NCBI GenBank assembly: GCA_016932615.1
Contig: JAFGCN010000024.1
Coordinates: 1-23,423 of the forward strand
Length of the DNA: 23,423 nt
Source: Candidatus Aenigmatarchaeota archaeon
GTDB lineage: Archaea; Aenigmatarchaeota; Aenigmatarchaeia; QMZS01
Reading direction: 5' to 3'
Shown here: one piece after another, positions 1 through 23,423 of the stretch
Numbering within the stretch: the first letter of the stretch is position 1
Layout of the letters: every line of letters begins with the position of its first letter
Program-made: the position numbers and the translations under genes
Notes under the pieces: model-generated
Told to the model about the DNA's origin: nothing
Seen by the model: only the letters and a program-made list of their open reading frames with translations
The model's database searches: none

Positions 1-1
1 C

Positions 2-115
2 CTCATCCTGACCTGTAATAATTGCAACCACGGCATAACCCTTGAGCCAAACAAGGTCACTGATTTGGGGTACGGAAAGGATTACAAAGACGTGGAGATA
101 ATTTACGCCATTTAG
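2..115 (+). CDS. 3' end of an unidentified gene (partial)
   Basis: An open frame enters from the left edge and ends at a TAG at 113-115, giving 37 visible residues that finish with VEIIYAI. The fragment contains a CNNC motif near its start (a possible half of a metal-binding site) and is otherwise polar. No stop interrupts the frame between the window edge and the TAG. Its codon use looks ordinary, and the next gene starts 45 nt downstream behind its own TATA-like box, so this is probably a separate transcript. The fragment is too short to name a family. Confidence 0.5.
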   Translation, partial: LILTCNNCNHGITLEPNKVTDLGYGKDYKDVEIIYAI

Positions 116-131
116 TAACTGCTGTCTCCAG

Positions 132-140
132 TAAATAATT
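132..140 (+). promoter_or_regulatory. TATA-like box for the membrane-protein gene
   Basis: The sequence TAAATAATT is centred about 25 nt upstream of the ATG at 161. That spacing would put the transcription start at or next to the start codon, giving a leaderless mRNA. There is no Shine-Dalgarno sequence before the ATG, which fits. Confidence 0.4.
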
Positions 141-160
141 AATTCAAATGACGGATTATT

Positions 161-754
161 ATGGAAAAACTCTCGAAAGGAGACCGAACCAAAATTTTGC
201 TTCAATTACATCAAGCCACACTAGAGGCAGAGTTGAAGGGCATGGGCTATTATATCTGGCTTGTGGAACGATTCATGACTTCAATCTTTGCAGTCACACT
301 GGCAGTGGCTGGTGCTGCACTGTACACCCAGCAATACCTTCTGTTCGCCTCAATACCCCTTTTCATCTTTCTAGGGCATACCGCTCACCGGCTTTTGATG
401 TGGCATATTTTCGGCATATGCGAAAGAGGTCTCCTAATTGCCCGTGCTTTGGGGCGACCTGATTCAAAACTGAACAAGTGTCTGAGGGCATACTACTATT
501 ACATAACTCCCGACTTTGATAGAAGCCACTTCAAAAAATCTGAAAGCATCGTAGAGGAACTTATCATCTATTCATTATATGCCAGTTTTGCCCTACTCGC
601 ACTGGCTAGCCTACCAGTAACCTACAAATACCTGTCAATCCACTTAGGCCTCATCTATGCGCTTCTTCTCTTTTTATCCATTTCTGTTGAAAGAATCATA
701 AGGAAAGACAAAGCAAGACGGAGGCAAAAGGCGGCAGAAGACCTAAAGATTTAG
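161..754 (+). CDS. Small multi-pass membrane protein, unrecognised
   Basis: This 197-residue protein has four likely transmembrane helices in two hairpins, roughly residues 38-57, 59-80, 132-152 and 158-177. A charged loop with a YYYY stretch (about residues 110-113) separates the hairpins, and the tail is strongly basic (RIIRKDKARRRQKAAEDLKI). The ATG at 161 was chosen because a TATA-like box lies about 25 nt upstream. The overlapping frame from 148 has a composition unlike a protein. The next gene begins 15 nt after the stop, so the two are probably co-transcribed. I recognise no family. The helix pattern and basic cytoplasmic tail only say that it is an integral membrane protein. Confidence 0.7.
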   Translation: MEKLSKGDRTKILLQLHQATLEAELKGMGYYIWLVERFMTSIFAVTLAVAGAALYTQQYLLFASIPLFIFLGHTAHRLLMWHIFGICERGLLIARALGRPDSKLNKCLRAYYYYITPDFDRSHFKKSESIVEELIIYSLYASFALLALASLPVTYKYLSIHLGLIYALLLFLSISVERIIRKDKARRRQKAAEDLKI

Positions 755-769
755 TGAAGGACCCGCACT

Positions 770-1207
770 ATGAAATCCGTCGTAGTTGGTTGGGTTGAGG
801 GGGAAATCATCAAAAGCCCCCACTGGAATCCTGGAAGCTGGGTACCTGAAAAGCAGCGGCTTGCCATATTGGACCATATGGAAACTTTCGGCTCCTGGGC
901 TTACCCTAGCTCCTTTGAGGCAGTAAATGACCCTTTGCTATGGATGCAAAATGGGGGGAAAGAGCTTGAGGTGTATGGAACCTGGAAGGAATTTTGTGTT
1001 GCAGACGTAAGTGCCAATGCTGTGGGTGGGGGCTATACCGTCTATGTGCCTGAAAACCTCAGCGTATGCTATCCCGGAAAACCACTGCCTTTGCTTCCAC
1101 GGCAGGTGGAGTCCAAGCTTGGCATCTATTACCCAGACATGAAAAGCACGCTTGAGGTGGAATTCTATGGCGACGCCTGGGTTTTCCGGCTTGTGCCGCC
1201 AGACTAA
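770..1207 (+). CDS. Small protein resembling a reduced isochorismatase/cysteine-hydrolase fold (paralogue 1)
   Basis: This 145-residue protein is a clear paralogue of the one at 3425-3835. Both begin MKSxVVGWxxGE, then have VPExxRxAIL, then ELEVYGxWxxxCV followed by G-x-x-VYVP, a YP pair and LGIxY near the C-terminus. The middle segment (EVYGTWKEFCVAD, then an Ala/Gly helix, then GGGYTVYVP) has the shape of the nucleophile-Cys region of isochorismatase/nicotinamidase hydrolases, and the VPE segment sits where their 'vPgg' loop lies. The first-strand Asp of that family is absent (VVGW instead of VVDxQ) and no clear catalytic Lys is visible. The protein is also shorter than the usual 180-200 residues. 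I infer a divergent, probably non-amidase member; the family call is tentative. It starts 15 nt after the membrane-protein gene. Confidence 0.6.
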   Translation: MKSVVVGWVEGEIIKSPHWNPGSWVPEKQRLAILDHMETFGSWAYPSSFEAVNDPLLWMQNGGKELEVYGTWKEFCVADVSANAVGGGYTVYVPENLSVCYPGKPLPLLPRQVESKLGIYYPDMKSTLEVEFYGDAWVFRLVPPD

Positions 1208-1279
1208 CCACTTCATCTGGTTTAAACAAACCTAGGACTCGCCCTTACTGGCTAGAAACTATTCTAAAGCCACACTATT

Positions 1280-1774
1280 ATGGCAGACAATAATGCAAAT
1301 ACCATCGTACTCGAAACATGGGGTGAATTTATCCCTGCCTTGAGAAGCGAACTGAAGAGAAGAAATTACCCTCATAGAAACGTCATTATCCGGCATTACG
1401 ATGTTTCAAGAACAGGCGTTGCAAAGAAAACCGGAACCGACAGGGACAATAACTCCCAGCTCTGGAACTTCCCTCAGGACATAGACCACAGATGGTCCAA
1501 TGCTTCAATAGACCCTTCTCAGGTAACTTATGCGCGAACCCTGGACTTGTCCCTGGACCCACCAAGGGCAATTCCTCTTGGCAGAAGTATGGTGGAAGGA
1601 ATGGATGACCTCGAGTATGTGAGCCACCTCAGTTCAGATGAAGGAATTCTAATTTATAATCCTGGGGGACTTAATCGGGTTTCAGAGAACGAGTACCATT
1701 TCAAAGGCCATCCAAACGATTACCTTATGTCCATATTTCTTGTCAAAAGCCAAAGGAGAAGCACGCCGAGGTGA
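1280..1774 (+). CDS. Hypothetical protein, unrecognised
   Basis: A 164-residue soluble protein with no signal peptide or membrane segment. Visible features are an acidic and hydrophobic N-terminus (VLETWGEFIPAL), a basic stretch (RSELKRRNYPHRN) and a C-terminal segment EGILIYNPGGLN that looks like a strand and loop. I recognise no catalytic motif. The last codons hold the Shine-Dalgarno sequence of the next gene (GAGGTGA at 1768-1774), whose ATG lies only 4 nt after this stop, so the two are translationally linked and probably work together. No strong promoter is visible directly upstream, although an AT-rich patch lies at 1255-1265. Confidence 0.55.
   Translation: MADNNANTIVLETWGEFIPALRSELKRRNYPHRNVIIRHYDVSRTGVAKKTGTDRDNNSQLWNFPQDIDHRWSNASIDPSQVTYARTLDLSLDPPRAIPLGRSMVEGMDDLEYVSHLSSDEGILIYNPGGLNRVSENEYHFKGHPNDYLMSIFLVKSQRRSTPR
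1768..1774 (+). promoter_or_regulatory. Ribosome binding site that decides the start at 1779
   Basis: GAGGTGA is an exact match to the core of the archaeal anti-Shine-Dalgarno complement and lies 4 nt before the ATG at 1779. It argues against the longer frame opening with TTG at 1740, which would overlap the upstream gene by 35 nt. Confidence 0.65.
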
Positions 1775-1778
1775 ACTT

Positions 1779-2138
1779 ATGGAACTCACAATCTATTCCC
1801 TTAAATCTCAGCCCTGGTCGGTGCTTGTCCCTGACTACGCCGCCGGGACAGCAGAGAATCTGCTTCAGGCCGCCGAAAAAGATTTAAATTCCCTAAGAGG
1901 CGAAACTTGCCTTGGAAGCTTACCCTGCCTTGGCACCGGGGAAATCTCCAACGGGCTTACCGCTATTGGCAACCACAAACTCTCTCCTGCGGATTACAAG
2001 ATAGTTTACGACAGAACTTTTCTCCTGATTTGTGAGGATTTCTGTTCTCGCTACAAAGGCCGAGAAGAAATGGAAATGCGGCGATTTAGCGAGTCCCTGC
2101 GAGAGCAGATAGATGAGCTTCCTAAATGCACTTTGTAA
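1779..2138 (+). CDS. Hypothetical protein, unrecognised
   Basis: A 119-residue soluble protein that begins MELTIYSLKSQPW. It contains a predicted helix (AENLLQAAEKDLNSL), a Gly/Cys loop (GETCLGSLPCLGTGE) and a charged C-terminal helix (KGREEMEMRRFSESLREQI). There is no signal peptide or transmembrane segment. The start follows the strong Shine-Dalgarno at 1768-1774. It forms a two-gene unit with the 164-residue protein upstream. The 3' end overlaps the convergent gene at 2122-2514 by 17 nt. The helix-loop-helix pattern and small size would suit an antitoxin or small adaptor, but I recognise no family and do not assign a function. Confidence 0.6.
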   Translation: MELTIYSLKSQPWSVLVPDYAAGTAENLLQAAEKDLNSLRGETCLGSLPCLGTGEISNGLTAIGNHKLSPADYKIVYDRTFLLICEDFCSRYKGREEMEMRRFSESLREQIDELPKCTL

Positions 2139-2514
2139 AAGTCTTGCCTCGAAAATACACTGAAACAGACTCGCCGGGGGTTTCCTTCACAAAGAACCCC
2201 TTTTTACCAAGTTCTTTCTCCAAATCAATTCCCTCTGCCTTCAGTTCAGGACCTTTCAAGACATCGTAAACATCAAAAACATGGTTCAATAAGTCCTTGG
2301 TGGGTGTCAACCGGCAAGTTCCATTTAAATAGGACGGTATGCCTCTTACAGCCATTTTTGGATCAACGACCAACAGCTTTTCAAAACCGGAAGGTGAATT
2401 CAAAGGCATGCCCAGATAAAAGGACCCCCAATACCTCTGCTCTTCGGGAGAATAACCCTCCCTCTGAAGGCGTTCCTTCAGCTTAGCCATGCCAGTCAAT
2501 CCTGCCTCTACCAT
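2122..2514 (-). CDS. Hypothetical protein, unrecognised
   Basis: A 130-residue soluble protein. It opens with a basic helical stretch (MVEAGLTGMAKLKERLQREG), passes through YWGSFYLGMPLNSPSGFEKL and PSYLNGTCRL, and ends in strands around GFFVKETPGESVSVYFRGK. No catalytic motif or membrane segment is evident. A strong TATA box (2533-2543) lies about 25 nt upstream of the ATG, so the transcript is probably leaderless. The gene is divergent from hicB, with both TATA boxes inside an 80-bp spacer. Its 3' end overlaps the convergent gene ending at 2138 by 17 nt. Confidence 0.65.
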   Translation of the reverse strand: MVEAGLTGMAKLKERLQREGYSPEEQRYWGSFYLGMPLNSPSGFEKLLVVDPKMAVRGIPSYLNGTCRLTPTKDLLNHVFDVYDVLKGPELKAEGIDLEKELGKKGFFVKETPGESVSVYFRGKTFTKCI

Positions 2515-2532
2515 AGGTTAATTACTTGAAAG

Positions 2533-2546
2533 TTATTTATATACCG
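2533..2546 (-). promoter_or_regulatory. TATA box (with CGGTATATA core) for the 130-residue gene
   Basis: On the minus strand the sequence reads CGGTATATAAATAAC, with its centre about 25 nt before the ATG at 2514. The 9-mer CGGTATATA also opens the hicB promoter in the opposite orientation at 2597-2605, so the divergent promoters share the same core. Confidence 0.55.
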
Positions 2547-2596
2547 CCGCTTCCTGGAGTCTGTGCAGAGTTAAATAAGCGGTAAAAGCCCCCACC

Positions 2597-2608
2597 CGGT
2601 ATATATAC
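2597..2608 (+). promoter_or_regulatory. TATA box for the hicBA operon
   Basis: CGGTATATATAC lies with its TATA centre about 17 nt before the ATG at 2621, 23 nt before the ATG at 2627 and 32 nt before the ATG at 2636. The usual TATA-to-start spacing therefore favours 2627 (leaderless) or 2636 over 2621 as the HicB start. A GC-rich patch (CCCCCACCC) precedes it. Confidence 0.55.
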
Positions 2609-2620
2609 TCGCCCGCTTCT

Positions 2621-2926
2621 ATGATTATGGCAAATATGTCCGCTAACTGCAACTTTGTTGGGCTCAAAATTCCGGTTCAGATTCTTAGGGAGAATGACGA
2701 CTTTATCGCCTATACTCCCGCCTTTGACATATCGACCTCAGGAAAGAGCTACGAGGAGGCCAAAAAGCGCTTTAGCGAACTGGTTGAGATATTCCTGGAG
2801 GAAACCACTGAGGCAGGGACCCTTGAGACCGCCTTGGAGGAGCTTGGGTGGAAGTGCGTGCAGAAAAAGTGGATGCCGCCGGTTGTAGTCGCCCAGGAAA
2901 TGCAGGAGATAAAAATGCCTGCGTAG
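2621..2926 (+). CDS. hicB: HicB-family antitoxin
   Basis: The protein (up to 101 residues) shows the HicB/UPF0150 pattern: a first strand IPVQILRENDDFIAYTP, then FDISTSGKSYEEAKKRFSEL, where the G-K-S-x-EEA turn leads into the conserved helix, then TLETALEELGWK. HicB proteins fold on and inhibit the HicA mRNA interferase. This one has no C-terminal DNA-binding domain, only a short tail ending EMQEIKMPA, so any autoregulation would rely on another surface or protein. HicA starts 3 nt after its stop. The antitoxin comes before the toxin, the reverse of the classical hicAB order but common in archaea. Starts at 2627 or 2636 are also plausible on promoter spacing. Confidence 0.85.
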   Translation: MIMANMSANCNFVGLKIPVQILRENDDFIAYTPAFDISTSGKSYEEAKKRFSELVEIFLEETTEAGTLETALEELGWKCVQKKWMPPVVVAQEMQEIKMPA

Positions 2927-2929
2927 AAG

Positions 2930-3154
2930 ATGATAAAGCCAATAAGCTGGAAGAAGTTTGACAAATTCTTAAAATATGTCGGCTGCACTTTGAAGTGTGA
3001 AAAGGGCGACCACATGATTTATTGGAGAGATGGCCTCAACAGGCCGATAGTAATCCCCAAAGTCGAGGACATTCCGACATTTGTGGTAAGAAATAACCTC
3101 CGAACCCTTGGCATCCCCAAGGAGGAGTACCTGGAGATTTTGGAGAGGGTTTAA
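2930..3154 (+). CDS. hicA: HicA-family mRNA interferase toxin
   Basis: A 74-residue protein with the typical HicA dsRBD-like layout: ISWKKFDKFLKYVGC (helix 1 and turn), then CEKGDHMIYW, in which His28 is the expected catalytic residue of the KGSH-type motif, then RPIVIPKVEDIPTFVVRNNLRTLGI and a final helix. HicA toxins cleave mRNA and are neutralised by HicB. The usual Ser before the His is Asp here and the 'Gly-x-Leu-xx-Ile' segment reads NNLRTLGI, both within family variation. The gene lies 3 nt after hicB, and a 47-residue ORF follows 2 nt after its stop. Confidence 0.88.
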   Translation: MIKPISWKKFDKFLKYVGCTLKCEKGDHMIYWRDGLNRPIVIPKVEDIPTFVVRNNLRTLGIPKEEYLEILERV

Positions 3155-3156
3155 AA

Positions 3157-3300
3157 ATGGAAGAAGAATTCGTAACCCGGTACGTCTTGAGGGACGGAAA
3201 GCTCGTGCCCTTCAAAGTCAGCAAAAAGGAAGCTTTCAGGGATGTTGCGTATATTTTGAGGAGAGATAAGAAATTTTTGGAGGCGATGAAGAATTTGTAA
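3157..3300 (+). CDS. 47-residue third gene of the hicBA operon
   Basis: The ATG at 3157 lies 2 nt after the hicA stop, behind the purine-rich GGAGAGGG at the end of hicA. The product (MEEEFVTRYVLRDGKLVPF, then a Lys/Arg-rich helix ending KFLEAMKNL) is basic and looks like a short beta hairpin followed by a helix. The TAA at 3298-3300 is followed at once by a T-rich terminator-like run, which suggests the operon ends here and the ORF belongs to it. It could be an accessory protein of the toxin-antitoxin pair or a passenger gene. I do not recognise a family. Confidence 0.5.
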   Translation: MEEEFVTRYVLRDGKLVPFKVSKKEAFRDVAYILRRDKKFLEAMKNL

Positions 3301-3307
3301 ACTTGGA

Positions 3308-3320
3308 TTTTCTCTTTTTT
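3308..3320 (+). terminator. T-rich terminator of the hicBA operon
   Basis: TTTTCTCTTTTTT begins 8 nt after the last stop of the operon. Archaeal RNA polymerase terminates at T-runs of this kind without needing a hairpin. Confidence 0.5.
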
Positions 3321-3395
3321 GAGATGTGGGTGAGTTAGCTCGATAGCCCCCCACCCCAACTTAGAATGGAGGTTTATGTAACGTACCTTCGATAA

Positions 3396-3404
3396 TTATT
3401 TATC
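3396..3404 (+). promoter_or_regulatory. TATA-like box for paralogue 2
   Basis: ATTATTTAT is centred about 25 nt before the ATG at 3425. It supports that ATG, which aligns with the start of the paralogue at 770, over the in-frame GTG at 3413. Confidence 0.5.
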
Positions 3405-3424
3405 CTATTATAGTGATAAACATT

Positions 3425-3835
3425 ATGAAATCCATAGTTGTTGGCTGGGCACCCGGAGAACTTCTGCCAGATTCCAGAGGCAAATCAAAAGTTCCTGAAA
3501 ATTATAGGAGCGCTATCCTCGGCAGGGCTTACCAAATGGGTTCCGCCCGAAAAGAAACAGCCACGACTGCCTTAGAAGTGATTGATAATTGGGCGCTTGT
3601 GCCGGGAACAGAAATCGAGGTTTACGGAGTCTGGGGAGATTTGTGCGTATCAATCCTTGTCGCCCACTGTCTTGACAGAGGACTGAAAGTATATGTTCCT
3701 AAAGGATGCACTGCCAACTATCCTAGGATAAAAGGCAGCCTTAACAGTTTCGTAAAGGATTCTGCCAACTCCCTTGGCATATGCTATGAAACCTGGCCTT
3801 GGAGGGAATATCGGATATTTGAGCCGGTTTTATAG
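3425..3835 (+). CDS. Small protein resembling a reduced isochorismatase/cysteine-hydrolase fold (paralogue 2)
   Basis: A 136-residue paralogue of the protein at 770-1207. Shared landmarks, in order, are MKSIVVGWAPGE, VPENYRSAIL, TEIEVYGVWGDLCVS, a helix, RGLKVYVP, a YP pair and LGICY. The Cys of the GDLCVS segment aligns with that of the paralogue and with the nucleophile Cys of isochorismatase-type hydrolases, while the usual first-strand Asp is replaced (VVGW). The ATG was chosen by alignment with the paralogue and by TATA spacing. Unlike paralogue 1 it seems to have its own promoter and no closely linked partner. Sequence divergence between the copies indicates an old duplication or separate acquisition. 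The fold assignment is inference. Confidence 0.6.
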   Translation: MKSIVVGWAPGELLPDSRGKSKVPENYRSAILGRAYQMGSARKETATTALEVIDNWALVPGTEIEVYGVWGDLCVSILVAHCLDRGLKVYVPKGCTANYPRIKGSLNSFVKDSANSLGICYETWPWREYRIFEPVL

Positions 3836-3971
3836 GTTTCTTGCAAATTGCAATCCATCTGGGGGTCTGCTGAAGAGAGGTGCTTCGCGCACGAGGAAAG
3901 CGATTGAGACTTGGGTTTTCCGGGGGGTGTTGCTGGGTTTAATTGCTAAGGTTGAGAATTTTTACTAAAAG

Positions 3972-4769
3972 CTAAAGACGCAAGTCAATGTTCTCTTCTA
4001 CAAATTTAATTCCCTTAGGCGATAGCAAGATTTCCTTTGAATCTCCATCATACTCGAGCAACCTTTCTTTATGGAGCGGTAAAACTATCCTATTCCGAAA
4101 TAGAGTTGAATTTGAATATTCTACCCATGCAAGGAGGTCTTTTTCCAATACTGGCTTTGGATATTCAGAGTATAATAGCGCAAGTACCTGCTGATTGTAT
4201 GTTAGCCCACAATTCAGCACTCTTCTTTTTGCTCCATTCTTCCATATGAGGGAGTATTCCTTAGCAACTATACCTTCCACAAGGTCTTGAGCTTCCTGAA
4301 GTGTGAGTTGATGGAATATCCTAACTAGGTCCGCAAGAATCCATTTTGAAACCTGGACGACAAGCGCGGAATCCATATGGTTGGGGTTGATTTCTCCGCC
4401 CATATGCCCAACGCCTCGCTTGTTCCTTAAGTCATAAAGAGCACACATCAGTTTTGGAATATGAAACCTTATTGTATCTGGAAAAGCCGACAAGCTTTCG
4501 AATTTTCTAGTTGAAACTCCAAAATCACGGATACTCTTACCGAAAGGTGTGTATGTCTGGGGAGAACTTGTATGCCACTCAAGTAGCCTATATACAGTTT
4601 CGCAGAACTTTGCTCCATTCAGTTCCGAAGGTTCAAACCGCCCTTCATGAAAGTTTCGTATAATCTGGTTGTAAGTAGTTTCAAGATTTGATGTTAAATC
4701 AGGAGGCAGGGTTGAGAATAGGGAAGAGAAGGTTATCTGAGAGCGGCTAACCCCGCCAGTGCCACTCAT
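3972..4769 (-). CDS. HEPN-like protein with C-terminal winged helix (last gene of five-gene operon)
   Basis: A 265-residue soluble protein. The central helical part (about residues 30-170) carries YDLRNKRGVGHMGGEINPN, where R115-N116-x5-H122 fits the R-[N/D/H]-x4-6-H signature of HEPN ribonucleases. The surrounding text (GHMGG, then MDSALVVQVSKWILADLVRIFH) matches a conserved-hypothetical family I recall from bacterial and archaeal accessory DNA. Residues about 188-260 look like a winged helix (QQVLALLY, then LLAWVEYSNSTLFRNRIVLPL, then LLSPKGIKFVE). The ATG overlaps the stop of the preceding gene by 4 nt (ATGA), so it is translationally coupled as the final gene of the operon. By analogy with HEPN proteins of toxin and abortive-infection systems it may be the effector. 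No activity can be read from sequence alone. Confidence 0.7.
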   Translation of the reverse strand: MSGTGGVSRSQITFSSLFSTLPPDLTSNLETTYNQIIRNFHEGRFEPSELNGAKFCETVYRLLEWHTSSPQTYTPFGKSIRDFGVSTRKFESLSAFPDTIRFHIPKLMCALYDLRNKRGVGHMGGEINPNHMDSALVVQVSKWILADLVRIFHQLTLQEAQDLVEGIVAKEYSLIWKNGAKRRVLNCGLTYNQQVLALLYSEYPKPVLEKDLLAWVEYSNSTLFRNRIVLPLHKERLLEYDGDSKEILLSPKGIKFVEENIDLRL

Positions 4770-5167
4770 TTTTCATCACCTGTTTTTAATTCCAGTAACG
4801 CCTTACACTTAAGGAGATTATAGTTGGGGACTATATAGAGCCCCCTTTTGACTTTAATAACTATCCCTTTTAGCTCCACACCTAGATAATGCCTTACATT
4901 TTCTGGAGCAATGCAAGTCTTTTCGGATATCTCCTTGGGTCTGCACTCTTCCTTAAGACCTTCCCCCAGATTTTTTATAACCGCCACCTTTCGTGCTAAA
5001 AGGTAGAGTGTGATTTTCTTGCGATCACTTTGAGTTTGATAATGCTCTTCAAACAGAACTTCTCCCACCCTGTTAATTCTCACATAGCTTTTCAGGAGTT
5101 CTGCCAATAGATCAATGTCTGCTGTTGCCTCACTATCCACTATCAGGTCATCAAGCGCATCAGTCAT
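4766..5167 (-). CDS. Small winged-helix-like protein (fourth gene of operon)
   Basis: 133 residues from the ATG at 5167, chosen because AGGTGGAG lies just upstream. The longer frame opens with TTG and runs 38 nt into its neighbour. The N-terminal half is acidic and helical (MTDALDDLIVDSEATADIDL). The C-terminal half reads as a helix-turn-helix with wing: KKITLYLLARKVAVIKNLG, then RPKEISEKTCIAPENVRHYL, then IVIKVKRGLYIVPNYNLL. The layout parallels the first protein of the operon (K-E/K-K-I-x-x-YL, a helix, a recognition-helix-like segment, then a basic wing), suggesting that the two are distant paralogues. It overlaps the upstream gene by 8 nt (ATGACTGA) and the downstream gene by 4 nt. Probably a DNA- or RNA-binding or adaptor subunit. 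Confidence 0.65.
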   Translation of the reverse strand: MTDALDDLIVDSEATADIDLLAELLKSYVRINRVGEVLFEEHYQTQSDRKKITLYLLARKVAVIKNLGEGLKEECRPKEISEKTCIAPENVRHYLGVELKGIVIKVKRGLYIVPNYNLLKCKALLELKTGDEK

Positions 5168-5567
5168 GTTTCTCCACCTTTTTGAAATTATTCTCAACGA
5201 CCCTTTCTCCAGTAGTGGTCAAGGTCCAGCACTTGCGTTCTTCCTTTTTACCTTTACCCTCCATGATACATCCTGCCCGGATATTCTTGTTTATCTTATC
5301 GTTTATATTCCCGGGAACGGGTTCTTTTGCTTGTCGAAAACCCGTTTCAATATCATTTAGATTAAAGCAGTCCGTACCTTGGTGCTTTTCCAAGTAATAC
5401 CCTATGGCCAGTGTTTTCTGGACATCATTTTTAGGAGATTTGGACAATAAGAACTCCTTAACTGACAAGACCTTCTCTGCAGAGAAGGGCTTGTTTTCAA
5501 ACTTCCGTTCAAGCTCAGTTATGCGCCGACCGTATTCCTCCAATATCCTCTCGACTTCCTCTTCCAT
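5160..5567 (-). CDS. Winged-helix protein with N-terminal coiled coil (third gene of operon)
   Basis: 135 residues. The N-terminus (MEEEVERILEEYGRRITELE) is a short coiled coil. Residues about 40-125 form a recognisable archaeal winged-helix type: LLSKSPKNDVQKTLAIGYYL, then CFNLNDIETGFRQAKEPVP, then NINDKINKNIRAG, then a wing around KCWTLTTTGERVVE. Such domains occur in uncharacterised archaeal proteins. The start at 5567 is supported by GGTGA 6 nt upstream, at the end of the previous gene, with 4 nt between stop and start. The coiled coil suggests pairing with the next-door protein, which also begins with a heptad-like helix. Confidence 0.7.
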   Translation of the reverse strand: MEEEVERILEEYGRRITELERKFENKPFSAEKVLSVKEFLLSKSPKNDVQKTLAIGYYLEKHQGTDCFNLNDIETGFRQAKEPVPGNINDKINKNIRAGCIMEGKGKKEERKCWTLTTTGERVVENNFKKVEKHD

Positions 5568-5571
5568 ATAT

Positions 5572-5907
5572 TCACCGCTTTACATAACGTCCCTTTCCTC
5601 TCGACCCAATACGAGCCAACTTACGTCCCTTAACCGCTCTTTTAAGAGGGTCGGTTAGGCTCTGTAAGGGATAGATATATCCCCCTTGACCTAACTTCTC
5701 TTTAATGTCCGTTATAGAGCGTGGCTCATTGAAATAACCTTCCTGTTTAAGATCCTCTATGCGAGTAGTTATTGAAGGTTTTCTTTTCGCCAGCTTTTTC
5801 ACAGACTCAGTCAAGAGCAAACCCTCTAGTTTCATAGTAACTCTCTCTAAGGCAATCAGCCGCTTTTCGATTGACTCCCTCCAGTTCCTTTCATTCGTTT
5901 GTTCCAT
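5572..5907 (-). CDS. Winged-helix protein with N-terminal coiled coil (second gene of operon)
   Basis: 111 residues. A helical N-terminus (NWRESIEKRLIALERVTMKLEGLL) leads into a compact winged helix: ITTRIEDLKQEGYFNEPRSI, TDIKEKLGQGGYIYPLQSL, TDPLKRAVKGRKLARIGSRG and a basic KGRYVKR end. The pattern 'I-x-x-L-x-x-E-G-[YF]-F-x-x-P-R-[ST]' followed by 'YPLxSLxxxLxR' is one I know from uncharacterised archaeal proteins, usually next to the SKSPK-type winged helix seen in the adjacent gene. The start overlaps the end of the first gene by 17 nt. The strongly basic C-terminus suits nucleic-acid binding. Confidence 0.7.
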   Translation of the reverse strand: MEQTNERNWRESIEKRLIALERVTMKLEGLLLTESVKKLAKRKPSITTRIEDLKQEGYFNEPRSITDIKEKLGQGGYIYPLQSLTDPLKRAVKGRKLARIGSRGKGRYVKR

Positions 5908-6319
5908 ACTTCTGAATAAGTTCCTTCAGTTTCCTTTCGATTTGATTTGCCTTGATAACATGCCCCATTCGTTTTCCATCGCTTAGCGGTTCCGACTCTA
6001 TCACTCCTTCTTCTCTCAGCATCTTTGTCCAAGGTAAAACACTCCCCTGAGGAAGGCCCATCTCAGTACAAAGTTCTTCGTTTGAAACTGCTGCGGATTC
6101 GCGCAAGCCCGCCCTTTTGCTATATTGCGCCCCAATTAAATAGGTCATTATCTTCTCTTTTCCAGATAATCTATCCTTTTCTTTAACGTCAACAAGCCCC
6201 TTCATGGTAATTCCAACAAGTCTTTTGGCCATATCATACCCCCTCTCTAACGCATCTTCATGAGTAGTTATCATCTCAGCCTTAATTTTTTCAGCAAGCT
6301 TATCTTCAACCCCTTCCAT
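5891..6319 (-). CDS. Winged-helix-like protein (first gene of operon)
   Basis: 142 residues from the ATG at 6319. A TTG at 6373 would extend the frame through the TATA box and into the 60-bp repeat, so it is rejected. The N-terminal half is helical (EDKLAEKIKAEMITTHEDAL, then YDMAKRLVGITMKGL). The second half shows GKEKIMTYLIGAQYSKRAGL, then VSNEELCTEMGLPQGSVLPW, then a basic segment SDGKRMGHVI, i.e. a probable winged helix, and a final helix ERKLKELIQKYG. Being first in the operon and next to a repeated upstream element, it is a candidate autoregulator or DNA-binding subunit, but that is inference. The whole operon is visibly more AT-rich than the alaS region. Confidence 0.65.
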   Translation of the reverse strand: MEGVEDKLAEKIKAEMITTHEDALERGYDMAKRLVGITMKGLVDVKEKDRLSGKEKIMTYLIGAQYSKRAGLRESAAVSNEELCTEMGLPQGSVLPWTKMLREEGVIESEPLSDGKRMGHVIKANQIERKLKELIQKYGTNE

Positions 6320-6330
6320 AATTATAACAT

Positions 6331-6343
6331 TTATATATAAATA
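6331..6343 (-). promoter_or_regulatory. TATA region of the five-gene operon
   Basis: On the minus strand the text following the 60-bp repeat is TATTTATATATAAATG. The TATA element is centred about 18-21 nt before the ATG at 6319, consistent with a leaderless or nearly leaderless transcript. It directly abuts repeat copy 1. Confidence 0.5.
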
Positions 6344-6400
6344 CTTTCTGTGCCTCTTACTGTGAGAAAACAAGTAGAGCTAACTGTCTAATACCAGAAA
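6341..6400 (-). repeat. 60-bp direct repeat, copy 1
   Basis: Exact 60-bp match to 6690-6749 in the same orientation. Inside it, TTTCTG at the start (6345-6350) is the reverse complement of CAGAAA at the end (6395-6400), and CTCTTACT (6354-6361) pairs imperfectly with AGTAGAG (6373-6379), so each copy could form a nested hairpin or a pair of protein-binding half-sites. It lies immediately upstream of the TATA box of the five-gene operon. Confidence 0.9.
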
Positions 6401-6441
6401 TCGCTTGACCAACCGCATATCGCGAACTGACCCTAATCAAA

Positions 6442-6666
6442 TCAAGCATAAAGAGCATAATCCGAACGATATAAATAACCCAGTAAAGCTCTAACGTTAG
6501 AATTATTAGTGTCTAGAAAGCTGTATGGCCTTTTAGAGTATTGCAAGGAGACTAACCCCAAAAGGTATCTATATACAGCAATTATTATGTATATACTAAA
6601 TAGCGACACTGTCATATAATGCATTAAATATAAAATTAGAACTATTCTATACTCGAAAAATATCAT
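6442..6666 (-). CDS. Possible small membrane protein between the repeats (low confidence)
   Basis: A 74-residue ORF lying wholly between the two 60-bp repeats. Residues about 5-38 are hydrophobic (Ile, Leu, Tyr) and could form one or two membrane helices, followed by a polar tail ending DYALYA. AT-rich DNA often gives such translations by chance, with many ATA and AGA codons, so the composition is weak evidence. In its favour, the ATG lies 23 nt past repeat copy 2 with a TATA-like TTTATGATA between. This is the same arrangement as repeat copy 1, which lies 21 nt before the start of the winged-helix operon. No family is recognised. Confidence 0.25.
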   Translation of the reverse strand: MIFFEYRIVLILYLMHYMTVSLFSIYIIIAVYRYLLGLVSLQYSKRPYSFLDTNNSNVRALLGYLYRSDYALYA

Positions 6667-6689
6667 ATAATCATAATAATATCATAAAG

Positions 6690-6749
6690 ATACTTTCTGT
6701 GCCTCTTACTGTGAGAAAACAAGTAGAGCTAACTGTCTAATACCAGAAA
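6690..6749 (-). repeat. 60-bp direct repeat, copy 2
   Basis: Identical over 60 bp to 6341-6400, offset by 349 bp, same orientation. Identity stops sharply on both sides (G versus A at the left, C versus T at the right). A TATA-like TTTATGATA follows on the minus strand, as at copy 1. Confidence 0.9.
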
Positions 6750-6841
6750 CGGCTATTTTTTGGCTTAATGGGGATATTATGTTTGCGGAGGTAAAACTTC
6801 TTGTTTTTCCCAAATACTTTTCACAAATCTCAACAAAATTC

Positions 6842-9070
6842 TTACTTCTTCCTAGCCCCCTTCCACTCCTCAAAGAGCTTCTCTGACTCCTCGAAAACCT
6901 TGTCCTCAGGGCAGCCCAGAACGTCAGCGCACTCCTTCAGGGCGGCTTCCATCCTCCCTGCGTACCTCCTGGCGGCGGCTCCTGCCACGAACTCGATTCT
7001 TGTAATGGCGTCCTGGATTTTTTTCACGCCTGTGATTATGATAAGCTCGGCTTCACGGGTGTTTTTCAGGTGCAGCCCTCCGCAGGCTTCAGCGTCCCAG
7101 TCGTCAATCTTGTCAGCGCCGCCCTCCTTTAGCTGGCCGATTCTTATGGTGCGGATTTCCTTTCCGGGAACCGCTCCGCCCTGGTAAATCTCAAAGCCGT
7201 ACTTCTGCTCGGCGTCAGTCCTGCACATGCACTTCCCGATGACGTCAAGCCCGTCGTGGATGCACTGGTTTGCGAGCCGTTCGATTTCCTCGACTTCCTC
7301 GTCGGTGACCTTCTTGTAGTGGTAGATGTCCAGGTGCGCCTTTTCGACGGTCTTCTCGGCTCCTGCCTGCTGCGCGTGCGCGCCTAGTACCCTCCTGCAC
7401 GCCCCGTTTATTATGTGCGCGCCCGTGTGGTGCTGCGTCAATTGAAGGCGCCTTGCCTTGTCGACCTTCATCTCCACGGGCGTTCCCTCTTTAAGGCCGC
7501 ACTTTCCGGGATGGTCCGGGCAGGTAGCCATATCAAAGACGCCTATGTCAATCTTATGCAGGACGATGTTTCCCTGCTTTATTACCTCCAAAACCTTGTG
7601 CTTGTTCAAAAGCCCCAGGTCGCAGTCCTGCCCCCCGCTTCTTGGGTAAAAGACAGTCCTGTCCAAAACCACATAGTCGCCGATAACACGCAGGACCTTT
7701 GCAACGCCCTTCGTTTCCCCCTCATAGTAGCGCTTCTCGGTGTCGGGAAGCCCCTTAGTGTCGAAAACCTCGCCTGAAGCCGCTCTCTCCTTTTTCTTCT
7801 CACGAGCGGCATAAAAATCAGCAGGAATCTCAACTTCCGGCTTTATGTCCTTGATTATTTCAGGGGTTATCCCATTGGATTCGTAAAGCCGCCTAAGCGT
7901 TTCCAGGTCGAACTTCTCCGTCTTTTTCACAATCTGGATTCCCTGGGCAATCATCTCCTTGTACTTTTTCTCTTCCTCGAGAATAATGTCAGCAATAAGC
8001 TTGAAGTCCGCTTTTTTTAGCTCAGGGAAAATCTTCCAGTTGGAGTGGATTTTCATTAGCTCCACCAGGTCGACCTTTTCGCCCGTTTTCCTCAAAATCG
8101 AAAAGCACTGCCTCAGAATCTTCCTCAGGTTGTACCCGCCGCCGGTGTTTGAAGGAAGCGCCCCGTCAAAAAGGGCAATAAAGAGTGTCCTCGTGTGGTC
8201 AGCCAAAATCACTTTTTCCTTAAATGAGAGCTTTGTGTTTTCAAGGTACTTAAGCGCCTCGGGAAAGACCACCTCGTAACTTGTCTTAGTCCCGTTCAGT
8301 ACCCATGGAAACCTTTCAAGCCCAGCGCCCATGTCGATTACCTTGGTCTCAAGCTCGACAAGCTTCTTTTCTCCAGTCTCATCCTGCAAAACCTTGTACT
8401 GCATGTAGACCTGGTTTGCTAGCTCTATCCCGCCGACAAAGAACTCGATTGACGGCCCGGCGTTGCCTCCGCCCTCCCAGGCGTCCTCGTGCAGGAATAT
8501 GTTCTCCTCCGGGATTCCCATCCCCTCGGTAAACAGCTCGAAAAGGTAACCCAATGCCTCGTCCTTGAAGTAAATGAAGTTTCCGGGGCGGTTGAAGACA
8601 TGCTGGCCGACCATTATAAAGCCGGAGTAGTGCCTCCCCGTGACCCCCACGTTTTCAAGGTCATTGAAGCGCAGGCAGAACTGCGGCACAAGAAGAGGAT
8701 TTGCAGGCGGCTCGACCTCACCTGAAACGCAGTATGGCTGGAAATCATAAATTGACGCCTCGACAAAGGTAACATCGTCCCTCCAGCGGGCAAGAACCGG
8801 GTACCGCTTGATGGGGGTGTGGCCGAATTTCCTAAAGACCGATACAAAGGTCTTCCAGCACTCGTCATAATTAAGCTTCTTTCCCATGGGCTTTCCCAGA
8901 AACCCGTAGGCGGGAAGCCCAAGCTTCACCCTGCACTCGTCATCGTCGCAGTAGTCCCTTGGAAACTTGCTCCAGAAAAATCTGCCGCAGACACGGCACT
9001 GCCTCCTGCCAAAGCCGATTTTCTCAAGCGTCTTTGAGGGGTATTCTTCTTTAGGAAATGTGAGCTTCAT
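6842..9070 (-). CDS. alaS: Alanyl-tRNA synthetase, archaeal type, without C-Ala domain
   Basis: This class II synthetase charges tRNA-Ala. The 742-residue product has the archaeal N-terminal extension with a Cys4 zinc site (C25, C28, C41, C46, around RVCGRFFW), the aminoacylation core with RWRDDVTFVEASIYDF and GVTGRHYSGFIMVGQHVF, a glycine-rich EGGGNAGPSIEFFVGG segment, and an editing domain with the HTGAH (548-552) and CGGLH (663-667) zinc motifs that deacylate mischarged Ser- or Gly-tRNA. It stops about 75 residues after CGGLH, at a Lys-rich end, whereas archaeal AlaRS proteins usually reach about 900 residues with a C-terminal C-Ala domain that helps bind tRNA. That domain is absent here. 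The ATG at 9070 gives a normal distance to the first Cys; an in-frame GTG at 9112 would overlap the upstream gene by 26 nt. Probably co-transcribed with that gene. Confidence 0.95.
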   Translation of the reverse strand: MKLTFPKEEYPSKTLEKIGFGRRQCRVCGRFFWSKFPRDYCDDDECRVKLGLPAYGFLGKPMGKKLNYDECWKTFVSVFRKFGHTPIKRYPVLARWRDDVTFVEASIYDFQPYCVSGEVEPPANPLLVPQFCLRFNDLENVGVTGRHYSGFIMVGQHVFNRPGNFIYFKDEALGYLFELFTEGMGIPEENIFLHEDAWEGGGNAGPSIEFFVGGIELANQVYMQYKVLQDETGEKKLVELETKVIDMGAGLERFPWVLNGTKTSYEVVFPEALKYLENTKLSFKEKVILADHTRTLFIALFDGALPSNTGGGYNLRKILRQCFSILRKTGEKVDLVELMKIHSNWKIFPELKKADFKLIADIILEEEKKYKEMIAQGIQIVKKTEKFDLETLRRLYESNGITPEIIKDIKPEVEIPADFYAAREKKKERAASGEVFDTKGLPDTEKRYYEGETKGVAKVLRVIGDYVVLDRTVFYPRSGGQDCDLGLLNKHKVLEVIKQGNIVLHKIDIGVFDMATCPDHPGKCGLKEGTPVEMKVDKARRLQLTQHHTGAHIINGACRRVLGAHAQQAGAEKTVEKAHLDIYHYKKVTDEEVEEIERLANQCIHDGLDVIGKCMCRTDAEQKYGFEIYQGGAVPGKEIRTIRIGQLKEGGADKIDDWDAEACGGLHLKNTREAELIIITGVKKIQDAITRIEFVAGAAARRYAGRMEAALKECADVLGCPEDKVFEESEKLFEEWKGARKK

Positions 9071-9086
9071 AAGATTAAATAGAATT

Positions 9087-9902
9087 TTAAGCTTTTTGAG
9101 CTGCTTGGACACCCGGATTATTAGATAACCGTTCTGCCCCAGTTACCTCCTGATAAGCCCTTTTCGCCAGGCCCTCTGAGGTATTTAGCGCCTGCGCCCA
9201 TCCTTCTTTACCCTCGACATCTCGCCCAATCTTTCGGGAAAGCGCAGGAGAGATTCTGTGAATGTAAACCAAAGCAGGCCATACTGAAAGTTCCGAAAGG
9301 GCAATGGTCCGAGTCAGTTCCTTTTTGCAGGTTATGTCGCCTGTTGTTTCGTTAAAGGCAAAAATAGGGTCCGTTTCTTTGGCCTCACAGGCATCCGTCA
9401 GTAGCAATTCCGGCTTTCCGAGCATTTTCTTAAAGTTCAGAAGGCCTACATCATAATACCTTGGTATGCTGGCCACCTCAAGGAGCAGGGGCTCATCGGT
9501 CCCAAGCTCTTCTTGGAAATATCGCGGAATCCTGCTAAACGAACCCCTAATATTCTCTCCTTCAAAGTTTATCTCAGACCCCTTTCTTAGAAGGTAGAAG
9601 TTATCCGGGGCGAAAAGGTCAGTGCATAAATCACCCACAAGAAATGGTTCCTGAACCACATCTGGGTATACTGACTTAAGCGGATTTTGTGCCAGCCTGA
9701 ATTTGGCGGGAAGCTCTACCCCGTAGGGCAGCGCAAAAATGGGGAGATATTCAGAATTCAGCAGGGACCCACCATCTTCCCTCTCCTCAATAAGGGCTTT
9801 AAGCGCAAAATGCGCGGGAGTGTCCTTCCCATATCCTTTTTTTCCAAGTATTGCCTTTACCTGAGTATTTCTATAGCCCTTTTCAAAAGCATCCGAAGTC
9901 AT
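9087..9902 (-). CDS. Hypothetical protein upstream of alaS
   Basis: 271 residues from the ATG at 9902, chosen because a TATA-like box lies about 27 nt upstream. A TTG at 9920 would add six residues. The protein is soluble, with an N-terminal basic region (KAILGKKGYGKDTPAHFAL), several proline-bounded strands (FALPYGVELPAKF, LFAPDNFYLLRKG, SFSRIPRYFQEELG), a two-Cys region (LLLTDACEAKE, GDITCKK) and a helical C-terminus ending GVQAAQKA. There is no signal peptide, membrane helix or familiar catalytic motif. It ends 16 nt before the alaS ATG, so the two are probably one transcript, but nothing in its sequence links it to tRNA charging. I do not recognise the family. Confidence 0.65.
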   Translation of the reverse strand: MTSDAFEKGYRNTQVKAILGKKGYGKDTPAHFALKALIEEREDGGSLLNSEYLPIFALPYGVELPAKFRLAQNPLKSVYPDVVQEPFLVGDLCTDLFAPDNFYLLRKGSEINFEGENIRGSFSRIPRYFQEELGTDEPLLLEVASIPRYYDVGLLNFKKMLGKPELLLTDACEAKETDPIFAFNETTGDITCKKELTRTIALSELSVWPALVYIHRISPALSRKIGRDVEGKEGWAQALNTSEGLAKRAYQEVTGAERLSNNPGVQAAQKA

Positions 9903-19984: not shown

Positions 19985-22900
19985 CTAGGGTGTAAAATAG
20001 CTCCCAACAGAGCAGCCGGATACCTCCTGGTAGCCCATGAAGCTTACAATAGCCCCGTAGCTTCCCGTGGCAACCCCTTTTGGCGCCCTTACCCTGAAGT
20101 CAATATTTGTCAGGTTCTCGCCAACCGGAAGGCCGCATGCAATTGCAAGGCCATATGAAGTGCCGTCCCTCGTCTTGCTTGGAACATTCATCCAGCCAGA
20201 GCCGTTGTAAATCTGCACATTGTTGGCACCATTTTCGCCTGTTGCCGGCTCTCCAAGGCACAGGGAATCATCCCCGTCATCAGTCGCGTCTGTTCCGGAG
20301 CAGATGTAATACGTGGAGTGGTAGTCTCCATTGGCATAGACCAGCACGTCAACTGTTGCCGTGCCGTTGTTTTTCAGCGTGAAGTTGGAATTGCTTCCAT
20401 CCTCAGTGTCATTGCCTTTCTCTGAGTTGCACGAGCCGTCAGCACCGGCATAGCAGTAGTACTGGAAGTCCAGAGGTATGTATGAAACTGTCCATGCCTT
20501 GTCTGACTGGTTATTTGTCTCAAATATCGAGATGCTTGTTGTCAGAAGACCTGGGGGATTTATGTCCCGCGACATCATGAAGAGCTTTTCTTTCGTGTAT
20601 ATGTAGATTGCCGTGTTATCTATTATAACCGTGTCTGTGGTGTTAGCCGCTTCGTATTCCTCAGAGCCATAACAGGACACATTCCAGTCAAATGTCCCGT
20701 TCGTGCTAAAGCTCCTGTTGTACTCATAAAGAGAGCTAGTGGCGTTAAAGCCCATCTCAACGGACTCTGTCCATCCGCCGGAAACGTTGAAGGTAATATT
20801 GCAGTAAACTCCGGCTCCGCTTATGGCGTCACCACTAGTAAGGTTAGTGTAGTTTGCGTAGAAAGTGACAAGCTCTTTCTTGTATTTTGTCTGGCTCCCT
20901 CCTTCGGCATCAGTCTCGTCCCAGATTGAAAGGTTCGAGTTTGAAGTTGCAGAGTAGTTGGAAAAGCCCGTGACGTTGAATTTCAAGCTGTTTCCTATAT
21001 ACGAGATAAACTCACAATCAGAGCAAACTGAGCCGTCTTTGAGGACTGACGGCGTTTTAAGGTAAGGAAGGTTGTAAAGAGTCACATTTGCCTTCTTGTT
21101 GAGTCTTGGCTCTTCAGTTGAGTTGACATATATATATCCGTCACCAATAGCGATCAGTTCGTCCAGGTCAACCCCTCCGCTAAGGTTTACCGGCTGGAGA
21201 TAGGCGATTTTCCCATAGCCCGATCTTTCAAGCATCAACCCCGAAATAGAGTGGGTCTGCTTGCCAGAAAGGTCGGTAGTCACACCATCAAAGCTTGTTG
21301 CAAGGATTACATCAAAGTACCTCATTTCAGAAACATTTGAAAGCTCTCCTTCGTCAGTGCAGTTAACTGTCCAGTTGTACCTTCCAACAGTTAGGCCAGT
21401 TAATGTGAAGTTCTGTGACAGGTTTCTTGTAACCGAGGAATTAGTCTGGTTTTCCTCTCCGTTTACGAATAGCTTGCAGCTTGTGATTGCGCTGTCGTCT
21501 GAAACATTGTACTTGAGATAGACTGTTCCGTCCGAGTCTCCGGAGTTGTTTGTTGGGGTTTCAAGGTGAATTGAGGGGACGGTCGTGTCTTCTTCAGTGG
21601 TGTTTAGCTCAAAGGTCTCGCTAGAGTTTTCGTCCATCACATTTCCGGCCAAATCTTCCGCCACAGTCACATTGATTGTGTAGTTTCCGTCTCCGGTCTC
21701 GTTTGTGAAGTTGTACCACCCAACCCATCTTGTGGAGTTAAACCAGCCGAGGGTTGTAAGTGTGTAAATTGAGGAGTTCTGGATTTTGACTGTCGGGTTA
21801 ATCGTCTGGTTCATCGCTTCGGAGAAGTCTAAGGTGAAAGTTACGTTTCCTGCGGCTACGGGGGAGGTATCATTGAGAGTAAGGAGGACTAATGTTGGGG
21901 CGGTCGTGTCAATCGTGATATCGTACTGCGCCGACATGTTCGTAGTGCTTCCGTTCGTGCAGTTGACCCACCAAAGGTAACTTCCATCCCCAGTTTCCGA
22001 GGCAATAATTGTGGTTTCAGTGTTGTTTGCCACCGAGTTGTTTGTGCCCTTTTCTGCCGAGTCGTAGTAGAGAGTACAGGAATAAGTGTCGTTAGTTCCG
22101 GTTACGTTGAACGTGTGGGTTGTGGTGTTATCGGTTGTGTTGGTGTCGTTTGTTGGCGCCATGAGGTTTACTGTGAAATATGTTCCTCCCGATTCCCCGC
22201 CTTCACCAACATAAAGGTATCTCGGGCTGCTTTCTGCGTAGTCGGTTGTGTAGGCACTGTTTGATGCCAAGTCGTTTGCCCATCCATAGTAGGTGTAAGT
22301 GCCGTCAGCCAAATTTGTAAGGTTGGAGTAGAAGCGATACTGGGTCGAGTTGTACTTCTGGAACTCAGTCTGGTAGTGAAGCCATATCTCGTCGGAGGTT
22401 AGGGAGCGGTTGTAGATTCTGAGTTCATCCAGCAAACCCCTGAATTGTTCCTCTCCAGACGAACAATATCCTCCTACCCGACTCCCATAACTTCTACCCA
22501 AAAGGAGGTTTCGTCCACTCTCTGGAATTGATGAAGTAGCATAAATGCTATTTTCCAGAACCCCATTTAGATACATCCTAAGCTCAGAGGAATTGTAAGT
22601 CACTGCAAAATGATTCCATTCCGAATCCCAAGCATCCGTAGCAGAGGATAGGGTCTTATTGCCGGGAGCAGCAAATCTGGCGGTGTAATTGGCGGAGTTT
22701 CCGCCAGCTGTTGTGAAAAGCCCTCCCGCATATAAGTCGCCCTCATATACCGCAAGATAAACCGCCCCATTGTTCAATCCAGAGCCCAAGGCCGACCAAT
22801 CGCTTCCGTTCCATTTGGCGATGTTTGCAGCAGGAGATCCTCCGGCAGTGGTGAAAAAACCACCAACATACAAATTGCCATTATTGACCGCCAACGAGTC

Positions 22901-23423
22901 CACCTCATCATTCAATCCAGAGCCCAAGGCCGACCAATCGCTTCCGTTCCATTTGGCGATGTTTGCAGCAGGAGATCCTCCGGCAGTGGTGAAGTTTCCG
23001 CCGGCAATCAACTCACCATTATAGACACCAAGTGTAAAAACATTGCTGTTTACTCCAGAACCTAAAGTTGACCAGTCGCTTCCGTTCCATTTGGCGATAT
23101 AATTCGCAGAACCTCCCCCTGCAGTTGTGAAACGCCCGCCAACATACAGATCCTCCCTATAGACAGTAAGTGCATACACTTTTTCGTTTACTCCAGAACC
23201 TAATGCTGACCAGCTAGTTCCGTTCCATTTGGCTATACCCGCAACCTCAATCTCCCCCGCAGTCGTGAAATTTCCGCCAGCAATCAACTCACCCTCATAC
23301 ACTCCCAAGGTATATACCCATTTGTTGGTCTCCTCTCCTAAAGCTGACCAGTCGCTTCCGTTCCATTTGGCTATATAATTTGCAGAACCTCCCCCTGCAG
23401 TCTCAAAGTTACCTCCCGCATAA
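19985..23423 (-). CDS. Giant secreted protein: delta-60-type repeats, LamG, Ig-like domains (5' end off the window)
   Basis: The frame runs through the right edge with no stop, so the visible 1,145 residues are the C-terminal part; an internal TTG at 23308 is not the true start. In order: five full and one partial 46-47-residue beta-propeller-like repeats (AGGNFTTAGG, then IAKWNGSDWSALGSG) of delta-60/DUF5122 type, about 22690-23422; a LamG/concanavalin-like domain, about 22350-22670 (FAVTYNSSELRMYLNGVLEN; GLLDELRIYNRSLTSDEI); several Ig or bacterial-Ig-like domains rich in N-x-S/T sequons, about 20700-22190 (DITIDTTAPTLVLLTLNDTS); and the shared surface module at 19988-20383 (VQIYNGSGWMNVPS; NIDFRVRAP). 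No C-terminal membrane helix is present, so it probably binds the anchored partners encoded downstream. The many sequons suggest heavy N-glycosylation. Confidence 0.85.
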   Translation of the reverse strand, partial: YAGGNFETAGGGSANYIAKWNGSDWSALGEETNKWVYTLGVYEGELIAGGNFTTAGEIEVAGIAKWNGTSWSALGSGVNEKVYALTVYREDLYVGGRFTTAGGGSANYIAKWNGSDWSTLGSGVNSNVFTLGVYNGELIAGGNFTTAGGSPAANIAKWNGSDWSALGSGLNDEVDSLAVNNGNLYVGGFFTTAGGSPAANIAKWNGSDWSALGSGLNNGAVYLAVYEGDLYAGGLFTTAGGNSANYTARFAAPGNKTLSSATDAWDSEWNHFAVTYNSSELRMYLNGVLENSIYATSSIPESGRNLLLGRSYGSRVGGYCSSGEEQFRGLLDELRIYNRSLTSDEIWLHYQTEFQKYNSTQYRFYSNLTNLADGTYTYYGWANDLASNSAYTTDYAESSPRYLYVGEGGESGGTYFTVNLMAPTNDTNTTDNTTTHTFNVTGTNDTYSCTLYYDSAEKGTNNSVANNTETTIIASETGDGSYLWWVNCTNGSTTNMSAQYDITIDTTAPTLVLLTLNDTSPVAAGNVTFTLDFSEAMNQTINPTVKIQNSSIYTLTTLGWFNSTRWVGWYNFTNETGDGNYTINVTVAEDLAGNVMDENSSETFELNTTEEDTTVPSIHLETPTNNSGDSDGTVYLKYNVSDDSAITSCKLFVNGEENQTNSSVTRNLSQNFTLTGLTVGRYNWTVNCTDEGELSNVSEMRYFDVILATSFDGVTTDLSGKQTHSISGLMLERSGYGKIAYLQPVNLSGGVDLDELIAIGDGYIYVNSTEEPRLNKKANVTLYNLPYLKTPSVLKDGSVCSDCEFISYIGNSLKFNVTGFSNYSATSNSNLSIWDETDAEGGSQTKYKKELVTFYANYTNLTSGDAISGAGVYCNITFNVSGGWTESVEMGFNATSSLYEYNRSFSTNGTFDWNVSCYGSEEYEAANTTDTVIIDNTAIYIYTKEKLFMMSRDINPPGLLTTSISIFETNNQSDKAWTVSYIPLDFQYYCYAGADGSCNSEKGNDTEDGSNSNFTLKNNGTATVDVLVYANGDYHSTYYICSGTDATDDGDDSLCLGEPATGENGANNVQIYNGSGWMNVPSKTRDGTSYGLAIACGLPVGENLTNIDFRVRAPKGVATGSYGAIVSFMGYQEVSGCSVGSYFTP
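22773..22855 (-). repeat. 83-bp exact repeat, copy 1
   Basis: Identical to 22911-22993. It spans most of one blade (TTAGGSPAANIAKWNGSDWS and the following ALGSGLN). Identity stops at both ends exactly, with different bases flanking each copy. Confidence 0.9.
22911..22993 (-). repeat. 83-bp exact repeat, copy 2
   Basis: Identical to 22773-22855 at an offset of 138 bp, keeping the reading frame. Confidence 0.9.

Follow-up and report, generated by a model that had tools for sequence, protein, structure and literature searches.

A duplicated 60-bp intergenic sequence as a candidate operator of a winged-helix operon in a Candidatus Aenigmatarchaeota archaeon

The intergenic region behind the alanyl-tRNA synthetase gene (alaS; positions 6842–9112, minus strand) of a Candidatus Aenigmatarchaeota archaeon carries the same 60-bp sequence twice, which raises the question of whether this sequence controls the small genes that it precedes or is the trace of a recent rearrangement. 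The window analyzed here (23,423 nucleotides) is the whole of contig C24 in a 1.26-Mb genome that is 97% complete and is distributed over 29 contigs. Read along the minus strand, the order is the alaS stop codon (6842), the distal copy of the repeat (copy 2; 6690–6749, 92 bp downstream of the stop codon), a spacer, the proximal copy (copy 1; 6341–6400), a TATA box, the gene wH1, three small genes and a gene encoding 265 residues. As stated in the initial annotation, the two copies are exact: 60 of 60 bases are identical and not one further matching base extends the identity on either side. Both copies are intergenic and lie in direct orientation 349 bp apart. Under a simple base model, the expected number of chance pairs of such a 60-bp repeat genome-wide is about 1e-23.

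A search of the 1.26-Mb genome returned exactly two copies of the 60-mer, which excludes dozens of copies scattered through the genome, as would be seen for a mobile element, and a MITE or similar repeat is rejected on this ground. The 60-mer is absent from 155 other genomes of the phylum, and partial matches of 17–24 nt in one genome (G069) are at the chance level. A viral or plasmid origin is also rejected: a 36-mer core of the repeat has no exact match in IMG/VR, searches of phage and plasmid records with the repeat region returned nothing, and neither wH1 nor the last gene of the operon is matched in viral contigs. Within 343 kb of sampled genome sequence, on which the repeat statistics are based, this is the sole exact intra-sequence repeat of at least 24 nt once tandem arrays and a 138-bp repeat are set aside. 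The latter is located inside a 1107-residue open reading frame at the right end of the window, where 138-bp tandem units (22633–23374) encode propeller-like repeats and the contig ends within the reading frame. The duplicated 60-mer is a locally unique but modest feature.

Since 60 is a round k value and the assembly is of a metagenome type in 29 contigs, the second copy could have been made by a contig join over a k-mer overlap. This is highly improbable. The starts of three contigs lie within tandem arrays with a length of exactly 87 bp, the pattern that a final k of 87 would leave (a value deduced from the assembly rather than from the reads), and with such a k the 60-mer would be spanned together with its flanks, so that no join over a 60-base overlap would arise. 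Moreover, the sampled stretches contain no N and the contig ends that were compared share no 60-base overlap. The array starts in question are those of contigs C3, C8 and C21 of G000; C8 and C21 share one 21-bp array (82-bp overlap) and are therefore likely to be neighbors in the genome.

The genes downstream of copy 1 are all on the minus strand. The first, wH1 (5891–6319), encodes 142 residues and directly follows the repeat. Its AlphaFold2 model has an overall pLDDT of 61.7, with values of 69–79 in the wing region, and the best PDB folds for the model fall mostly among the MarR and ArsR regulators (E values of 0.013 and above); wH1 is thus predicted, with low confidence, to be a winged-helix protein with a MarR-like fold. 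The second gene (wH2; 5572–5907, 111 residues) is predicted by position and weak alignment to encode a small DNA-binding protein. It is followed by a third (wH3; 5160–5567, 135 residues), a fourth whose product is weakly similar to wH1 (wH4; 4766–5170, 134 residues, 23%) and the last (3972–4769, 265 residues), which contains an Abi_C-like stretch with a Pfam E value of 0.015, below the cutoff. A search of about 90 related genomes found no homologous operon, and the sole relative of wH1 found there is 27% identical. This relative is the first of two small winged-helix-like proteins encoded in tandem directly behind a methyltransferase-like gene (locus L006 on contig C66 of G066); the second resembles the product of the fourth operon gene by eye.

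The minus-strand end of copy 1, CAGAAAGTAT, runs into the predicted BRE and TATA box of wH1 and continues as TTATATATAAA; its final GAAAG adjoins the predicted TATA box itself (TATTTATATATAAA; 6330–6343, minus strand). The wH1 ATG begins 22 nt past copy 1, and another minus-strand ATG begins 24 nt past copy 2, in agreement with the initial annotation, which had gone on to describe the repeat as an upstream control element standing in front of two promoters and used twice. The part of this description that concerns copy 1 is consistent with the sequence, since this copy occupies a position suited to an archaeal operator and ends in the putative BRE beside a strong TATA box. Copy 2 lies farther upstream of wH1 in the same orientation; it is followed by CTTTATGATATT, a TATA-like string weaker than that of copy 1, with no supported gene behind it. 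The TTTATATA octamer of the wH1 promoter starts at −22 from the ATG, a few bases nearer than the main peak in this genome, where octamers start at about −32 to −25 (240 ORFs), and this offset counts against an operator reading. A bacterial promoter scan is not applicable to archaea and was set aside.

The near-equal ATG offsets invite the explanation that two separate promoters share one operator, with copy 2 controlling the expression of a small membrane protein or of an RNA. A 74-codon reading frame (ORF74; 6442–6666, minus strand) does lie behind copy 2 and is longer than the reading frames found in 998 of 1000 shuffles. However, its base composition is flat across the three codon positions (χ2 of 1.1, p = 0.98). 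The corresponding p values are 0.0003–0.02 for wH1, wH3, wH4 and the last operon gene; that for wH2 is 0.23 and not significant. ORF74 matches no Pfam family and gives a single weak PHROG match (E value 0.028). Because of its flat codon-position composition ORF74 is probably noncoding and is rejected as a gene, and in view of the lack of a convincing gene behind copy 2 the proposed double use is unsupported. An RNA product fares no better, with no RNA family and no excess folding observed. Together with the weak TATA-like string, these results make a second promoter improbable. The spacer between the copies (6401–6689) is 289 bp in length with 31% GC, shows no relationship to the remainder of the window and matches no RNA family; a perfect 12-bp palindrome, TCTAACGTTAGA, is present within this AT-rich segment at 6490–6501.

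The initial annotation also described a terminal TTTCTG/CAGAAA dyad and an imperfect inner stem in each copy. The terminal dyad exists and is unusual by its position rather than by its length: a 6-bp dyad at the outer ends of the 60-mer is seen in 0.9% of shuffles, whereas 35% of shuffles contain an exact 6-bp inverted arm at some position in the 60-mer. The imperfect inner dyad (CTCTACTTG-TTTTCT-CACAGTAAGAG) is no better than shuffled sequence. RNA folding of the 60-mer does not exceed that of shuffled sequence on either strand (z = +0.36 and +0.61), and the Rfam search gave no match at the gathering threshold and one chance-level match (E value 0.52) outside the repeat; a structured RNA is rejected on the basis of these results.

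Sites of the att and dif types likewise consist of direct repeats that share an identical core and contain an imperfect inner dyad, and the genome encodes two proteins of the tyrosine-recombinase family. The copies could accordingly be att-, res- or dif-type sites flanking a 349-bp unit that a recombinase inserts or excises. This explanation is decidedly improbable. The dyad arms are no better than those of shuffles, no recombinase is seen in the window, a 349-bp unit lacks the space for a recombinase gene, and the two recombinase loci, which lie on other contigs, carry no copy of the 60-mer.

A somewhat better clue to the anatomy of the repeat than the inner stem is a set of three direct ACAGWWAG sub-sites on the minus strand. 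In copy 1 these are sub-site 1 (GACAGTTAG; 6380–6388), sub-site 2 (CACAGTAAG; 6356–6364), which is 24 bp past sub-site 1, and sub-site 3 (CACAGAAAG; 6344–6352), which is 12 bp past sub-site 2 and overlaps the BRE position, a BRE being assigned here from the location beside the TATA box. The equivalent sub-sites in copy 2 are at 6729–6737, 6705–6713 and 6693–6701, respectively. The statistical signal is modest: 0.75% of 400 shuffles also yield three 8-mers differing by no more than one mismatch, a frequency uncorrected for the settings tried. A pair of sub-sites at 12-bp spacing with no mismatch is found genome-wide only in these two copies, but as the motif was derived from the copies themselves this uniqueness is not independent evidence. 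The loose sub-site pattern recurs in more than 120 stretches of viral contigs, many of them in tandem arrays, and is uninformative.

The tentative interpretation that we put forward, at somewhat less than an even chance, is that the 60-mer is a duplicated operator of one winged-helix operon, with a proximal and a distal copy, and that the control is possibly autoregulatory. Under this interpretation, the three iterated sub-sites would be recognized by a regulator, plausibly one encoded in the operon. Since the last sub-site lies on the putative BRE, occupation of copy 1 would compete with TFB and TBP and could thereby repress the operon. The distal copy might raise the local concentration of the regulator or might serve as a second, tunable site.

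This arrangement resembles an autoregulated promoter of Sulfolobus. Stf76 (ORF80), a winged helix–turn–helix protein of the plasmid-virus pSSVx, has been shown to bind its own promoter at two sites, of which one overlaps the BRE and the other is distal; its motif is 15 nt in length (TTAA-N7-TTAA) and the sites are ∼64 bp apart (PMC4027180). The shared features are a small winged-helix gene (predicted in the present case), two upstream copies of a cis-element at BRE and distal positions, and iterated half-sites. In contrast, the candidate element described here is 60 bp in length and its copies are 349 bp apart. F55 of the Sulfolobus virus SSV1 acts in repression through repeated sites, two per promoter, over the BRE or transcription start site; it is a ribbon–helix–helix protein whose short ATAGATAG repeats are common to several promoters (PMC5569661), whereas the present repeat concerns a single operon and has a different motif. 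C68, also from pSSVx, binds at a site covering the BRE of its own promoter and at a second, distal site (PMC5569661), a layout similar to that proposed here, although C68 has an AbrB-like fold and a 10–11-nt motif (PMC5569661). Stf76 is the working precedent, with F55 and C68 as looser parallels. Membership in these families is not claimed, because the motifs, spacing and protein differ or may differ.

The main competing explanation is a recent nonfunctional duplication or recombination scar, in which a 60-bp segment, alone or together with the 289-bp spacer, was duplicated next to its source too recently for the copies to have diverged. Such an event accounts for the perfect identity and the sharp ends as well as an operator does, and its probability is not far below that of an operator. 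Identity over the full 60 bp goes beyond what an operator usually needs, and in this respect the repeat speaks for a recent duplication as much as for an operator. The flanks show no homology beyond chance: downstream of the copies 15 of 23 bases match (p = 0.03 ungapped and 0.62 gapped), and the likeness of the upstream flanks is at the chance level (p = 0.41). A longer, decayed duplication, in which the spacer would descend from the promoter and coding region of wH1, is rejected as its local alignment score is below those of shuffles. The GC content of the spacer (31%) is also low compared with that of the adjoining genes (∼43%) and of the region to the right (∼50%), which likewise favors a duplication or scar. 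Against a neutral duplication, copy 1 is placed precisely at the BRE/TATA position, and no other exact intergenic duplication of this kind occurs in the 343-kb sample.

The neighborhood of alaS also bears on this explanation. The alanyl-tRNA synthetase is 60–67% identical to those of Candidatus Aenigmatarchaeota relatives, by which the genome is assigned to this phylum. In the relatives whose alaS 3′ flank was examined (members of the family and the other named genome), a convergent gene for a DUF45-like peptidase follows at once, with gatB next or near. The peptidase has no match in the present genome, and gatB is located on another contig and not beside alaS. Since the peptidase/gatB order of the relatives is missing here, the spot beside alaS has been rearranged, which favors a duplication. 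Positions 1–6750 of the window are lower in GC (about 42–49%) and consist mostly of genes without family matches, and this segment is possibly an acquired island whose other end lies off the contig; the acquisition of a low-GC stretch next to alaS would be one example of an event in which the repeat could have been duplicated. The segment also contains a HicA toxin-family gene (2930–3154) behind a small gene that appears HicB-like by position and sequence, and two reading frames (770–1207 and 3413–3835) for similar proteins, beginning MKSVVVGW and MKSIVVGW, that give sub-threshold isochorismatase-like matches and are probably paralogs.

In weighing the operator interpretation, the lack of a homologous locus for footprinting the 60-mer in the relatives searched counts against it, as does the spacing of the TATA box noted above. 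In its favor, a predicted regulator gene lies directly downstream of copy 1. A more elaborate version, in which an orphan-gene stretch of a DPANN archaeon is controlled by a duplicated 60-bp operator bound by the tandem winged-helix proteins encoded downstream, and in which the distal copy could be lost through recombination with the proximal one, resetting expression, is unlikely. To our knowledge, there has been almost no experimental study of cis-regulation in DPANN archaea. If the 60-mer is a scar, it would mark a recently rearranged spot beside alaS; if it is an operator, it would provide a concrete, small and testable promoter–regulator pair from the Aenigmatarchaeota.
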